Shown: positions 8,653-13,590 of the stretch, in pieces
Position numbering within the stretch: the stretch's first letter is position 1
Layout of the letters: each line of letters opens with the position of its first letter
Source: Olleya sp. Bg11-27
Lineage (GTDB): Bacteria > Bacteroidota > Bacteroidia > Flavobacteriales > Flavobacteriaceae
Length of the DNA stretch: 64,000 nt
Assembly: GCF_002831645.1 (NCBI RefSeq)
Contig: NZ_CP025117.1
Span: 3,859,001 to 3,923,000 of the forward strand
Direction of reading: 5' to 3'
Program-made: the position numbers and the translations under genes
Notes under the pieces: model-generated
The model's input: the letters and a program-made list of their open reading frames with translations, nothing else
What the model was told of the DNA's origin: nothing
Database searches by the model: none

Positions 8653-9948
8653 ATGAGAACACTCAAAATATTAATCCTGACGTTATGTGTTTCGGCAATT
8701 AGTTTTGCACAACAAACGCCTGGAGATAAACAAACCCAAGCCATTACTATTGAAGGTGCCACTGCACATTTAGGAAACGGTGATGTTATTGAAAACGCTT
8801 TAATAATGTTTGAAAACGGTACTCTAACTTTTGTTGGTAGTGCTAACACAAAAATTGCAAGACAAGGAACTGTTATTGATGCCAAAGGTAAACACGTGTA
8901 TCCTGGCTTTATTGCACCAAATGCAACTTTAGGTTTAGTTGAAGTCGATGCTGTACGTGCAAGTGATGACGAAGACGAAGTTGGCGCTATGAATCCGCAC
9001 ATCCGTAGTCTTATTGCTTATAATACCGAATCTAAAGTAGTAGAATCTATGAGACCTAACGGTGTTTTAATGGCGCAAATCACACCTCGTGGTGGACGTA
9101 TCTCTGGAACATCAAGTGTTGTACAATTAGATGCTTGGAACTGGGAAGATGCAGCAATTAAGGCTGATGATGCGATTCACTTAAACTGGCCAAGCAACTA
9201 CTCTAGAGGACGCTGGTGGTTAGGAGAATCAAATGTTTTAAAAGAAAACAAAAACTACGCTAAAGAGATTGAAGAATTAACCAACTACTTTGCACAAAGC
9301 AAAGCCTATAACGCTAATAAAACGACACCAAAAGATTTACCTTTTGAAGCGTTAAACGGTTTAATGGATGGTAGTAAAAGACTTTTTGTACATGTAGATT
9401 ATGAAAAAGGAATTACAGATGCAATCAATTTTGCTAAAGCAGAAAACATAAAACACCTTGTTATTGTTGGTGGTTATGAAGCTAATAATGTTGCCGCCCT
9501 ATTAAAGCAAAACAACATCCCAGTATTATTACAACGTACACATTCTAGACCAAAAGGAGACGATCATGATTACGACTTGCCATACAAATTAGCAACGCAA
9601 TTAGTAAATTCAGGTATTTTAGTTGGTTTAGAAAATGCTGGAGATATGGAACGTATGAACACTAGAAATTTACCATTTTTAGCTGGGACAACCGTAGCAC
9701 ACGGATTAACAAAAGCACAAGCACTAAGCTTAATAACATTAAACACTGCTAAAATATTGGGTGTAGATGATACAGTAGGCTCTTTAGAAGTTGGTAAAGA
9801 CGCTACCCTTTTTATTAGCCAAGGTGATGCTTTAGACATGAGAACAAACAAACTGGACCAAGCTTTTATCCAAGGTCGTACTATTAGCTTAGAAACGCAC
9901 CAAACAGAATTATACAAGCGTTATTCTGAGAAGTATAAGAACAAATAA
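8653..9948 (+). CDS. Secreted amidohydrolase-like protein, probably inactive
   Basis: A 431-residue protein with a signal peptide (MRTLKILILTLCVSAISFAQ) and a single amidohydrolase-like domain. The normal HxH metal pair is replaced in YPGFIAPNATLG, and no clear set of metal ligands remains. It aligns by eye with the degenerate N-terminal half of the 994-aa neighbour. The VGSLEVGKDATLF end motif is standard for the family. It is co-directional with that neighbour, so the two may act as a catalytic and scaffold pair. REP-like repeats begin 20 bp after its stop. Confidence 0.8.
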   Translation: MRTLKILILTLCVSAISFAQQTPGDKQTQAITIEGATAHLGNGDVIENALIMFENGTLTFVGSANTKIARQGTVIDAKGKHVYPGFIAPNATLGLVEVDAVRASDDEDEVGAMNPHIRSLIAYNTESKVVESMRPNGVLMAQITPRGGRISGTSSVVQLDAWNWEDAAIKADDAIHLNWPSNYSRGRWWLGESNVLKENKNYAKEIEELTNYFAQSKAYNANKTTPKDLPFEALNGLMDGSKRLFVHVDYEKGITDAINFAKAENIKHLVIVGGYEANNVAALLKQNNIPVLLQRTHSRPKGDDHDYDLPYKLATQLVNSGILVGLENAGDMERMNTRNLPFLAGTTVAHGLTKAQALSLITLNTAKILGVDDTVGSLEVGKDATLFISQGDALDMRTNKLDQAFIQGRTISLETHQTELYKRYSEKYKNK

Positions 9949-9968
9949 ATTTAAAAACTATTAAGACA

Positions 9969-10725
9969 CTTCGACTGCGCTCAGTGTGACAACAACACTA
10001 CTAATTATCATTTTAGCACCAATGTCAGGCTGAGTGCAGTCGAGGACCTTGTAAAACAAAAAACTTAATACTATATAAGCACTTCGACTGCGCTCAGTGT
10101 GACAACAATACTAATAATCATCATACTATCACTAATGTCAGGCTGAGCGCAGTCGAAGACCTTTTAAACATAAAACTTAATACTATATAAGCACTTCGAC
10201 TCCGCTCAGTGTGACAGCAATAGTACTAATTATCATTTTAATACCAATGTCAGTCTGAGCGCAGTCGAAGACCTTGTAAAACAAAAAAAACTTAATACTA
10301 TATAAGCACTTCGACTGCGCTCAGTGTGACAACAACACTACTAATAATCATTTTAGTACCAATGTCAGGCTGAGCGCAGTCGAGGACCTTGTAAAACAAA
10401 AAACTTAATACTATATAAGCACTTCGACTGCGCTCAGTGTGACAACAATACTAATAATCATCATACTATCACTAATGTCAGGCTGAGCGCAGTCGAAGAC
10501 CTTTTAAACATAAAACTTAATACTATATAAGCACTTCGACTCCGCTCAGTGTGACAGCAACATTACTAATTATCATTTTAATACCAATGTCAGTCTGAGC
10601 GCAGTCGAAGACCTTGTAAAACAAAAAAAACTTAATACTATATAAGCACTTCGACTGCGCTCAGTGGGACAACAACACTAATAATCATCATTTTAATACC
10701 AATGTCAGGCTGAGCGCAGTCGAAG
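9969..10725. repeat. REP-like palindrome array, left block (7 units)
   Basis: Seven units start near 9969, 10082, 10194, 10309, 10422, 10534 and 10649. Each has an arm close to CTTCGACTGCGCTCAGTGTG, about 35 bp of AT-rich sequence, and the inverted arm (GTCAGGCTGAGCGCAGTCGA), so each can form a stem of about 20 bp. A link of about 35 bp with an ACTTAATACTATATAAG core joins the units. Units 1-3 recur as units 4-6 at exactly 340 bp. There is no coding sense here: reading frames through it only translate the repeat. Confidence 0.92.
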
Positions 10726-10748
10726 ACCTTAAAACTAAACAAACACAA

Positions 10749-11063
10749 ATGCATTTTTATTTTGTCTACATATTAAAATGCTCAGACAATTCGTTCTACA
10801 CAGGAATAACAAACAACCTCGAAAAACGACTTAATGAGCACCAATCTGGTAAAAACAGAAATAGCTATACTTATAAAAAGAGACCTGTCGATTGCCTATT
10901 TCACCAACAGTTTAATGATGTAATCCAAGCCATTTATTTTGAAAAGAAAATTAAAGGTTGGACAAGAGCCAAAAAAGAAGCTCTAATTAATAAGGACTTT
11001 GATTTACTTAAAATTTTATCTGAATGTAGGAATGCAACACATTATAAATACAATGGTATCTAA
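10749..11063 (+). CDS. GIY-YIG nuclease domain protein inside the REP array
   Basis: A 104-residue single-domain GIY-YIG protein (YhbQ/UPF0213-like branch). The GIY and YIG strands are read as VYI (residues 6-8) and YTG (17-19). Arg27 in LEKRLNEH and Glu65 in YFEKKIKGW sit at the catalytic positions, so it looks active. The family nicks or cuts DNA through a tyrosine/arginine/glutamate centre. It starts 24 bp after the seventh REP unit, and the next unit starts 17 bp after its stop. The gene is thus enclosed by the array. This position suggests a link with repeat spread or processing, which is inference. Confidence 0.88.
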   Translation: MHFYFVYILKCSDNSFYTGITNNLEKRLNEHQSGKNRNSYTYKKRPVDCLFHQQFNDVIQAIYFEKKIKGWTRAKKEALINKDFDLLKILSECRNATHYKYNGI

Positions 11064-11079
11064 GTCAATAAAATAAGCA

Positions 11080-11789
11080 CTTCGACTCCGCTCTGTGTGA
11101 CAGCAACATTACTAATCATCATTTTAGTACCAATGTCAGTCTGAGCCCAGTCCAAGACCTTTTAAACATAAAACATTAACATAATTCAACACTAAATGAG
11201 CACTTCGACTGCGCTCAGTGTGACAGCAATACTACTAATTATCATTTTAATACCAATGTCAGGCTGAGCGGAGTCGAGGACCTTTTAAAACAAAAAACTT
11301 AATACTATATAAACATTTCGACTGCGCTCAGTGTGACAACAACACTACTAATCATCATTTTAGTACCAATGTCAGTCTGAGCGCAGTCGAAGACCTAGTA
11401 AAACAAAAAACTTAATACTATATAAGCACTTCGACTGCGCTAAGTGTGACAACAACACTAATAATCATCATTTTAATACCAATGTCAGGCTGAGCACAGT
11501 GGAAGACCTTGTAAACAAGAAGCATATACTAAATAAGCACTTCGACTGCGCTCAGTGTGACAACAACACTACTAATCATCATTTTAGTACCAATGTCAGT
11601 CTGAGCGCAGTCGAAGACCTTGTAAAACAAAAAAACTTAATACTATATAAGCACTTCGACTGCGCTAAGTGTGACAACAACACTAATAATCATCATTTTA
11701 ATACCAATGTCAGGCTGAGCGCAGTCGAAGACCTTGTAAAACAAAAAAACTTAATACTATATAAGCACTTCGACTGCGCTCAGTGTGAC
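11080..11789. repeat. REP-like palindrome array, right block (6 units plus a half unit)
   Basis: Full units start near 11080, 11203, 11315, 11429, 11540 and 11654. A final left arm without its partner lies at 11768-11789. Units 10-11 recur as units 12-13 at a 225-bp step, which points to recent tandem duplication. Some arms carry changes (for example CTCTGTGTGA in the first unit and a GTGGAAG end in unit 11), so the copies are ageing at different rates. Confidence 0.92.
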
Positions 11790-11816
11790 AATTAAATTAA
11801 CAAAATAACCTTAAAC

Positions 11817-11865: not shown

Positions 11866-12669
11866 TTACTCCACTACAGTAGCAGCTTCTGGCTTTTCAA
11901 ATGTATTAGCACCTAATGCTTGCTTAGATAAAGTAACATCAGTAAACTGTAAATCGTTACGTTTTTTAACTGGTAAATTCTCTTCAACAATATACCATGT
12001 TAAAGTCTCAGGTAATACAATACCTTCAATTGTATGCCAATTGCTATATTTAATAAATGACCATTTTTCGCTTTTAGCTTTACTATTAAAAGTAACAGTA
12101 TACGCTAACCACTCCATTTTAAATGTTGTTGGGTTATAATAAAGTATGTACTCATCATCAGAAGACTCTCCTACGCCATTATCATAACTAATTTTAATTC
12201 CAGGATACTCTACACCTTCAAAACTTAACGGTTTTGCATCCTCATAATTAATCCCTTTATCTGCTAGCACAAATGGCATTGTATGAAAATAGAACATTAA
12301 ATTGTAATAAAACTTTGGGTTACCTTTATAAACCTCATCACTTTTAGCATCTAACCAAACGGTCTTACCATCATATCCTAAAACGTGATCTGGCATTGTA
12401 ATTATAGACTGTCTAGATTTTAAATTCACAGCAGTTACCTCTTTACCGTTTGGCTTATTCATTGTAAATGAAACAGATTGCATCTGGTTCCAATTATCAA
12501 TACCTCCATGTGCTTCAAATACTTTTGAAATATTTTCAGGATAATTTGACTTAGCAACTACAGGCGTTGCTTTAGGTAGCTCTGAAGCTTTCTCTGTCAT
12601 TGTTTTAGTTTCATTTTTACATGAAATAAAAAGTAAACCAATACATAAAGTATAAAATAAGTGTTTCAT
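11866..12669 (-). CDS. DUF6503 family lipoprotein
   Basis: A 267-residue protein with a lipoprotein signal peptide (LLFISCKN, Cys17). A family-typical body starts with a KVFEAHGGIDNWNQMQSV segment. The YPGIKISYDNGVG and EYILYYNPTTFKMEWL segments are nearly the same in the next gene (12784-13590), so the two are paralogues from tandem duplication. It probably sits on the outer face of a membrane, as LolA/LppX-like folds do, but no ligand is known. Terminators stand after both copies, so each may have its own transcript. Confidence 0.8.
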   Translation of the reverse strand: MKHLFYTLCIGLLFISCKNETKTMTEKASELPKATPVVAKSNYPENISKVFEAHGGIDNWNQMQSVSFTMNKPNGKEVTAVNLKSRQSIITMPDHVLGYDGKTVWLDAKSDEVYKGNPKFYYNLMFYFHTMPFVLADKGINYEDAKPLSFEGVEYPGIKISYDNGVGESSDDEYILYYNPTTFKMEWLAYTVTFNSKAKSEKWSFIKYSNWHTIEGIVLPETLTWYIVEENLPVKKRNDLQFTDVTLSKQALGANTFEKPEAATVVE

Positions 12670-12783: not shown

Positions 12784-13590
12784 CTACTCTACAAATGTTG
12801 CTTTTTCTGGCTTAACAAATTGTGCAGCCTCAGGTGCCGTTTTTGTGATTTTTACATCTGTAAACGTATTTGGCGCTTTAGGTGTTGTTGGTTTATCATC
12901 TTTAAATCCATAACCTGTAATGGTTTTAGGTAAGATCAATCCATTAACCTCTTGCCAATCACTGTAACGTCTAAAATGTAATTCTTTAGTATCAATTCCT
13001 GGTACAAAATTTACTGTATACCCTAACCATTCCATTTTAAAAGTCTCAGGGTTATAATATAAAATATAAATATCTTCAGGTGTTGCTCCTACTCCATTAT
13101 CATAAGATATTTTAATTCCTGGGTAAGTGACACCTTCAAAAGTAAGTGACTCTGCATCAGAGAATTTAATTCCGTCGTCAGACAAAATAAAAGGCATAGT
13201 GTAAAAGTAGAACATTAAGTTATATCCAAATTTAGGATCATAACCTTTAAACTCTTTACCTGTTTTATTTAAAAACCAAGGTTTCTGTCCATCAAATCCG
13301 ATTGCATAATTTTCAGATTTAAGCAATGCTTTTCTGTTATTTAAATCTGTAATTGTAACTTCTTTTCCATCAGGCTTATCTTGAGTAAACTCTAAAGACT
13401 TCATAGATTTCCAAAGGGCTACACCTCCATGTGCATCAAATACTTTTGTTAATTTTTCTGGGTACGTTTTTGTTTTTACCGCCACCATCTTTTTAGTAGT
13501 ATCGGCTTCAACTTTAGCTTCAGTTTTTGTTTCAGTCTTACAAGAAAACAAAATTAAGGCTAGGGATAATGTGTAAAATAAGTGCTTCAT
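12784..13590 (-). CDS. DUF6503 family lipoprotein, paralogue
   Basis: A 268-residue lipoprotein (LILFSCKT lipobox, Cys17) with the same architecture as the 11866-12669 protein. It starts with a Lys/Thr-rich linker, then KVFDAHGGVALWKSMKSL, and shares the GVTYPGIKISYDNGVG core. Identity is highest in the middle and falls towards the C-terminus, where it has a TPKAPNTF insertion. It lies upstream of its paralogue on the same strand. The function is unknown. Duplication with divergence suggests related ligands. Confidence 0.8.
   Translation of the reverse strand: MKHLFYTLSLALILFSCKTETKTEAKVEADTTKKMVAVKTKTYPEKLTKVFDAHGGVALWKSMKSLEFTQDKPDGKEVTITDLNNRKALLKSENYAIGFDGQKPWFLNKTGKEFKGYDPKFGYNLMFYFYTMPFILSDDGIKFSDAESLTFEGVTYPGIKISYDNGVGATPEDIYILYYNPETFKMEWLGYTVNFVPGIDTKELHFRRYSDWQEVNGLILPKTITGYGFKDDKPTTPKAPNTFTDVKITKTAPEAAQFVKPEKATFVE

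Follow-up and report, generated by a model that had tools for sequence, protein, structure and literature searches.

Short GIY-YIG nuclease genes paired with tagged palindromes suggest an enzyme family that spreads a class of bacterial repeats previously without a known driver

REP palindromes are repeats that occur commonly in bacterial genomes, and a locus of Olleya sp. Bg11-27, in which a gene for a small GIY-YIG nuclease lies inside an array of palindromic repeats, raises the question of whether such a nuclease can be the partner of a REP family. Di Nocera 2013 (PMC3733652) divided REPs into a GTAG class that is partnered with RAYT proteins and a CGTC class whose members "apparently lack a dedicated transposase", and RAYT is the known REP partner (PMC2817692; PMC8266576). 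The initial annotation of the locus had proposed that a nuclease of another fold stands here in the place of RAYT. We analyzed the locus within a window of 64,000 nt, the whole stretch of DNA under study (G000:C1:3859001-3923000), which is part of a 4.31-Mb single-contig genome, and compared it with relatives in the genus, in the Flavobacteriaceae, and in other phyla.

The GIY-YIG gene, assigned on the basis of its open reading frame, a Pfam match, and conserved residues, occupies positions 10749-11063 of the window on the plus strand and encodes 104 aa. Upstream of it, at 9969-10731 (no strand assigned), are seven repeat units of ~113 bp, which are inverted TGTC-tagged arm pairs CTTCGACTGCGCTCAGTGTGACA ... 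TGTCAGGCTGAGCGCAGTCGAAGACC with variants and with their tags facing inward; downstream, at 11079-11790 (again without strand), are 6.5 units of the same family. A repeat search recovered a 125-nt unit in 14 register copies, spaced 111-123 bp apart with a single interruption, a 431-bp step containing the GIY-YIG gene; the final register copy is half a unit, giving 7 units upstream and 6.5 downstream, and the enclosure of the gene by 13.5 units that had been described initially therefore stands. The gaps between gene and repeats, previously given as 24 and 17 bp, came to ~20 and ~15 bp by eye, the definition of the unit end deciding the value. The array also includes a higher-order duplication (9940-10579, no strand) in which a 300-nt block occurs again after 340 bp, that is, after three units, with 95% identity. 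An amidohydrolase-like gene that ends at 9948 precedes the upstream repeats and a lipoprotein-sorting-like gene (11866-12669, minus strand) follows the downstream repeats, both named from their translations; the latter is one of two adjacent paralogous lipoprotein-like genes (11866-12669 and 12784-13590) that adjoin the array.

The window protein matches the Pfam GIY-YIG model (PF01541) with an E value of 1.9e-18, and Tyr7, Tyr17, Arg27, His31, and Glu65 are all present. Y7, Y17, R27, and E65 are invariant in 16 of the 16 aligned clade members, in agreement with the earlier description of a 104-aa GIY-YIG protein with Arg27 and Glu65 in place. The significant PF01541 match together with Tyr, Tyr, Arg, and Glu, which we take to be the catalytic residues of GIY-YIG nucleases, places the protein in this superfamily. 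The gene is under purifying selection, with dN 0.032, dS 0.293, and a dN/dS of ~0.11 relative to its orthologue in the congener G065. A structure model of the protein has a mean pLDDT of 84.8, and Foldseek places two uncharacterised UPF0213 proteins nearest to it, followed at weak E-values (0.03-0.27) by the branched-DNA nuclease Slx1, which is the nearest solved structure of known substrate. The UPF0213 GIY-YIG proteins (PDB 1zg2 and 1ywl; E 4.2e-11 and 3.1e-10) agree with the window protein in domain and size.

Each repeat unit consists of an arm like CTTCGACTGCGCTCAGTGTGACA and its reverse partner TGTCAGGCTGAGCGCAGTCGAAGACC across ~30-40 bp, and the repeat search listed 25 of 101 inverted pairs. 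The units had been called long palindromes, which is correct for the inverted arm pair but not for the single arm: as single-stranded DNA the paired unit folds at -23.5 kcal/mol (z -8.05, with 0 of 200 shuffles as good), whereas a single window arm has a 4-5-bp stem and folds no better than its shuffles. The arms carry TGTCAG or TGTCAC. Because the TGTC tags face inward within each unit and the gene lies between two units, the tags of the nearest arms point away from the gene, both upstream and downstream. The exact pattern CTTCGACTNCGCTCAG occurs 49 times in the genome versus 0 times for the reversed pattern, and 76 times versus once if up to one mismatch is allowed. In PMC3733652, CGTC REPs are characterized by a CGTC or TGTC tag, an 8-9-bp stem mostly beginning with AT, a 4-5-nt loop, a CCA-like tail, and the formation of dimers. 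The window arms have a tag of this superfamily (CGTC, TGTC, or CCTC at one end) and the full units are dimers in inverted orientation, but the window arm lacks an 8-9-bp stem directly after the tag with a 4-5-nt loop. Because the repeat keeps the tag and the dimers yet fails on the stem, we file it as a divergent relative and not as a strict CGTC REP; the window repeats represent a divergent branch with a TGTC tag, weak single-arm hairpins, and strong paired hairpins. A second array of the same repeat, with a ~105-bp step and no GIY-YIG match, is located at G000:C1:2267095-2268052, and G065 contains an array that resembles this gene-less one (C1:19524-20795).

Nine PF01541 matches were found in the genome, three of them in long frames (609, 482, and 458 aa) and six in short genes, L001 (the window gene) to L006. 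All six short genes have mutually matching flanks, with scores of 436, 196, 241, 168, 41, and 339, and each has a repeat of its own: CTTCGACTGCGCTCAG (L001), CTTCGACAAGCTCAG (L002), GTCATGCTGAACTTGTTTCAG (L003), GTCATTGCGAGGGAAGC (L004), GTCTGGTCGAGCGCAGTCGAGACC (L005), and GTCAGTTCGAGTG...TATCGAGAAC (L006), with CGTC or TGTC as the tag. Flanking inverted pairs were computed for L001-L003, and the palindromes of L004-L006 were read by eye; the genome-wide copy counts cover the window (L001) family, one of the six in this genome. The same genome contains five tandem cold-shock genes with nearly equal scores (G000:C1:2989154-2991105), a recent-looking amplification.

For the family-wide comparison we used 60 Flavobacteriaceae genomes, one per genus, all 60 of which contain PF01541. 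The set of 75 loci comprised the six of Olleya, 29 others with a single locus for each genome, and 40 additional short matches that stood highest in the list. Nine short or odd matches listed before the last locus used were skipped: one lay at the edge of a contig, six were tandem partners of genes in the set, one had a stop, and one was in an 874-aa frame. The flanks were compared at the 73 loci that have at least 150 bp on both sides (L082 and L095 were left out), with an SW score of at least 30 counted as a match. Mutually matching flanks were found at 55 of the 73 short GIY-YIG genes at this threshold and at 49 of 73 at a score of at least 36; among cross-locus flank pairs the corresponding proportions were 4.9% and 2.6%. 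The value of 55 is low by one, because L048 was mislocated (to a 5-aa frame) and scored as unmatched although its flanks match at 488; as scored, matching flanks were absent at 18 of the 73 genes. Cold-shock genes of the same genome set gave 1 of 30 and 0 of 30 at the two thresholds, and uvrC, which shares its domain with the GIY-YIG genes, gave 0 of 20 at both. Y1_Tnp loci matched in 7 of 12 and 4 of 12 cases (12 used of 20 fetched), so the test also detects this known REP-linked kind. One branch, which is associated with tRNA genes and gene starts and is described below, had matching flanks at 13 of 19 loci; outside it the counts were 42 of 54 (at least 30) and 37 of 54 (at least 36), or 41 of 52 at the lower threshold if tandem loci and L048 are removed as well. 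A strict test for YGTC hairpins, defined as YGTC followed by an 8-10-bp stem with a 3-6-nt loop within 300 bp of the gene, was passed by 16 of the 75 loci. Repeats are thus strongly enriched at homologous GIY-YIG genes, as the initial annotation had anticipated, and not at cold-shock or uvrC genes. Tandem GIY-YIG pairs with equal scores and starts ~300-1000 bp apart occur at G053:C13:365450-365976, G057:C3:111158-111733, G010:C15:34612-35866, and elsewhere, and some of the matches are decayed GIY-YIG copies with stops.

The repeats differ between GIY-YIG genes in a way that follows the proteins. Among cross-genome pairs of 72 loci, the proportion with similar flanks rises from 0.5% at a protein similarity below 0.3 to 76% at 0.7 or more. 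In a permutation that shuffled flanks among the genes of one genome, and so kept genome and phylogeny, 0 of 2000 runs reached the observed values. The permutation was repeated after 21 of the 72 loci had been dropped (the tRNA/gene-start branch with L053, and two syntenic loci), leaving 51 loci and 1235 pairs, with 32 loci in 11 genomes that could be shuffled; 0 of 5000 runs reached the observed values. On a tree of 150 proteins the flank classes cluster, requiring 36 changes versus 67.6 in shuffles with 0 of 200 as low, this being a quick tree in which 71 of 147 inner branches are open. Relatedness among genomes is partly controlled across these comparisons, and the within-genome permutation and the dropping of 21 of 72 loci lower the weight of shared ancestry of the flanks as the cause. 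Repeat sequence is predicted by protein kinship. The initial annotation had a single case, and the cognate pairing of gene and repeat across genera is general and involves several repeat families.

Beyond the family, we scanned GTDB genomes with a query alignment of ten Flavobacteriaceae proteins and used the best 80 of 551 confirmed stretches, which by their record titles come from Bacteroidota, Ignavibacteria, several Proteobacteria classes, Nitrospirae, Chloroflexi, Planctomycetes, Omnitrophota, candidate phyla, and others. A YGTC hairpin is present near the gene in 58 of these best 80 relatives and on both sides in 35. The same test was positive in 7 of 287 distal segments of these loci, 0 of 30 cold-shock genes, 1 of 20 uvrC genes, and 0 of 12 Y1_Tnp loci (12 used of 20 fetched). 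Flanking is tight: in the best 80 of 551, the median distance from the gene to the nearest hairpin repeat is 22 bp on the upstream side and 12 bp on the downstream side. The tag of the nearest repeat points outward on 69 of 93 sides (two-sided binomial p 3e-6), and both tags do so in 24 of the 35 loci with hairpins on both sides; outward orientation is a tendency with exceptions. Scrambled tags gave 0, 2, and 3 of the 80 loci for three tags and 16 of 80 for CTGY, matches that may overlap YGTC hairpins. Flanks matched each other at a score of at least 30 in 52 of 76 distant loci, yet so did 17.4% of cross-locus pairs; the flank-to-flank test is less sharp among the 80 distant loci because many of them have one repeat kind in common. 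L177 shows the textbook arrangement of CGTCATTCCCGCGTAGGCGGGAATCCAG, gene, and CTGGATTCCCGCCTTCGCGGGAATGACG, and YGTCATNCCNGCNNNNGCNGGNATC occurs in 39 of the 47 gene-carrying genomes obtained from the first 50 loci, 452 times in total versus 0 for the reversed pattern. Chance clustering, considered as an explanation of the pattern, is opposed by the cold-shock, uvrC, distal-segment, and cross-locus controls.

A plasmid collection gave 35 hits, of which we examined 12 records. A hairpin is present beside the gene in 9 of the 12, and in 7 of the 12 it occurs on both sides; the positive records include Azospirillum lipoferum, Novosphingobium aromaticivorans, Shinella, Sphingobium, and Neisseria gonorrhoeae. 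The strict hairpin test was negative for Sinorhizobium meliloti, Rhizobium tumorigenes, and Planktothrix, and the flanks of S. meliloti contain CCTC-type palindromes by eye. On a Planktothrix agardhii plasmid (L259) a GIY-YIG family gene has an MmeI-type restriction gene on one side and a DISARM helicase gene on the other. The GIY-YIG gene of the Neisseria gonorrhoeae record is flanked by dRS3-type repeats, the sequence being presumably the dRS3 of PMC3733652. The flanking hairpins of many relatives fit the description of the CGTC REP superfamily, including neisserial dRS3, in PMC3733652; that paper reports no dedicated transposase for the superfamily, whereas here a GIY-YIG gene is the recurrent partner.

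If the nuclease drives the repeats, genomes without the gene should have fewer of them, and the initial annotation had named equal numbers as a reason to abandon the idea. Across the 60 genera CTTCGACTNCGCTCAG occurs on average 6.9 times in the 26 genomes with a related gene versus 0.7 times in the 34 without (Mann-Whitney p 1.3e-4), a related gene being one of at least 65 bits in this set and of at least 70% identity within the genus, with both cut-offs set after the lists had been seen. There are exceptions in both directions: 9 of the 26 genomes with the gene have no motif, and 9 of the 34 without it have 1-6 copies. Within the genus, the three genomes whose gene reaches 70% identity have 49, 56, and 27 repeats, and the seven others have 18, 12, 4, 4, 3, 2, and 0, one of the two genomes with 4 repeats being 75% complete; the counts separate completely, which has a chance of 1 in 120 if the genomes are independent. 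G062 has 18 repeats without a gene of the window clade, and its upstream gene is 97% identical to that of Olleya sp. Bg11-27. Repeats are therefore fewer where the cognate gene is lacking, though not absent, in the genus as well as over the 60 genera.

Gene and repeats also co-occur at the window locus, where both are present in 3 of the 10 genomes of the genus and both are absent in 7. Olleya sp. Bg11-27 and G065 have the gene with an array, in G060 the gene has a single arm on either side, and G062 has neither gene nor array; the gene-free alleles of the 7 genomes are without a clean insertion boundary. Clean insertion with target-site duplication was found in none of the empty-site comparisons in the genus or on Shinella plasmids, where the gaps held unrelated DNA, and for Sinorhizobium and Rhizobium CIAT894 the query record alone covered at least 80% of the locus. 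Of the repeat sites outside the genome of Olleya sp. Bg11-27 (154 counted, 113 listed), 14 of those listed have a GIY-YIG match within 500 bp, by eye. One dispersed site of the Olleya genome is a leuS-like gene (our name; G000:C1:1138049-1138408) with an in-frame arm of the window family. In relatives (L309-L327) this site has an insert of 24 or 69 nt: the window family in Olleya sp. Bg11-27 and G062, another single-arm kind in G060, G063, G064, and G067, and a CGTC dimer in G061, G065, and G071, while it is empty in G068, G005, and others. Repeats are thus gained or exchanged at one fixed site, which is what cutting of palindromes by a nuclease, with others copied in by repair, would lead one to expect.

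We consider it probable that gene and repeats form a REPtron-like selfish unit in which the nuclease cuts its own palindromes and repair spreads the copies. The window protein would be a small, stand-alone GIY-YIG endonuclease, and the YGTC-tagged palindrome that flanks its gene would be its cognate substrate; it would recognize this palindrome when extruded as a hairpin or cruciform, or when single-stranded at replication, and nick or cut it. Through repair from another copy, palindrome pairs could then arise at new sites, sites already occupied could switch to a different repeat family, and arrays could grow in tandem; the gene between two palindromes might occasionally move along. We infer binding, cutting, and copying through repair, and with them the nuclease as driver of repeat spread, for the window protein. 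A nuclease of another fold would thus occupy the RAYT position, with dispersed palindromes as non-autonomous derivatives; the initial proposal is supported, with the nuclease as the putative driver of the spread. An extension that we regard as evenly balanced is that stand-alone GIY-YIG nucleases are the missing enzymes of CGTC/TGTC palindromes across bacteria, with a minimal element of ~350-400 bp (palindrome, gene, palindrome), hairpin cutting and repair copying, dispersed palindromes as non-autonomous progeny, and related branches that target tRNA genes or gene starts.

A rather unlikely alternative is that the nuclease only homes, settling beside pre-existing palindromes that another agent spreads. 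The persistence of repeats without the gene in G062 agrees with it, as does another branch that sits in other fixed targets. Many 80-93-aa GIY-YIG genes of Flavobacteriaceae sit at tRNA genes, and 13 of 37 loci scanned, which were chosen and not a random draw, contain a tRNA (L041, L059, L063, L072, L085, L086, L088, L095, L096, L098, L100, L101, and L102, in or near the tRNA gene). The tRNA-associated genes are mostly 80-93 aa and mostly of one branch, with Arg, Asp, Val, Met, Leu, Ala, and Asn tRNAs. At several loci a decayed 5' piece of a tRNA stands on one side of the GIY-YIG gene and a complete tRNA on the other; in the Arg type the decayed piece is upstream and has a GC-rich hairpin, and the complete tRNA is downstream, which gives the impression that the element rebuilds its target. 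A duplicated protein-gene start fragment lies beside the GIY-YIG gene in L062 and L065 (nucleotide-sugar epimerase-like) and in L049 (another gene), and in L083, of the target-fragment duplication group, the gene lies inside a small gene. Target choice therefore differs by branch, in line with homing-like ancestry. Against homing alone, repeat numbers increase with the cognate gene, repeat sequence follows the protein branch, and Y1_Tnp, the sole other driver looked for, is missing in 33 of the 60 genomes.

It is improbable that the protein is a domesticated hairpin-processing or regulatory partner that trims or uses the palindromes in genome maintenance or at transcript ends, the clustering being a linkage of nuclease and substrate. 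Purifying selection and the weak structural similarity to Slx1 would suit such a role, but patchiness within the genus, unlinked paralogues with their own repeat families, and decayed copies with stops indicate mobile behavior rather than a house-keeping gene. Spreading by a RAYT elsewhere in the genome is very improbable: although RAYT is the known REP partner and Y1_Tnp loci do score in the flank test, Olleya sp. Bg11-27 has two weak Y1_Tnp matches, both more than 100 kb from any listed CTTCGACTNCGCTCAG site, the 33 of 60 genomes without a match speak against it, and the tag is YGTC, not GTAG, with no YGTC hairpin near the 12 Y1_Tnp loci used, so that RAYT as the driver is unsupported. That the locus is a matter of chance or artefact, with slippage enlarging a tandem array around a gene that has nothing to do with it, or with an error of assembly, is scarcely credible, since gene and array recur in G065, a single pair in G060, and the pattern in many phyla, even though arrays do expand, as the duplicated 300-nt block shows.

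The selfish unit that we favor resembles the REPtron (RAYT/TnpA-REP) in that a small DNA-processing gene lies between cognate palindromes, which are paired, carry a tag, and occur scattered over the genome as well, and in having several repeat-specific paralogues per genome. Unlike in the REPtron, the enzyme is GIY-YIG and not an HuH Y1 transposase, and the tag is TGTC in the window and CGTC or TGTC in relatives; no PF01797 match lies near the listed window-family repeats, and the GTAG tag is absent from them. Free-standing GIY-YIG homing endonucleases have their gene at the target, a patchy distribution, and branch-specific targets. The genes described here share the location at a presumed target, the patchiness, and the branch-specific targets, but their target is a multicopy palindrome instead of a single conserved gene, there is no intron, and cutting is putative. 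Open-access full-text searches, with subscription papers and preprints outside their scope, returned no GIY-YIG-REP link among the matches listed; a RAYT and a GIY-YIG gene are named in one table of PMC9465073.

With a GIY-YIG partner, the CGTC REPs that the 2013 paper (PMC3733652) presents as apparently without a dedicated transposase gain a named candidate. Such a partner would imply a second, independent route of REP spreading that uses an unrelated nuclease fold. It would also account for the frequent position of short "GIY-YIG nuclease family" genes beside intergenic palindromes, and would offer natural protein-palindrome pairs, six in this genome, for the study of target choice by a ~100-aa nuclease.

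Rickettsia RPE palindromes occur inside genes. One RPE case is quoted in PMC3733652, and the in-frame REPs in leuS-like and hsdM-like genes of Olleya sp. Bg11-27 are similar in this respect, although they belong to other repeat families and another phylum. Both gene names are from our own reading of the frames, and in the hsdM-like frame near 2414670 (L038) the translated in-frame REPs read VTLSAVEG and RHSELVSES.
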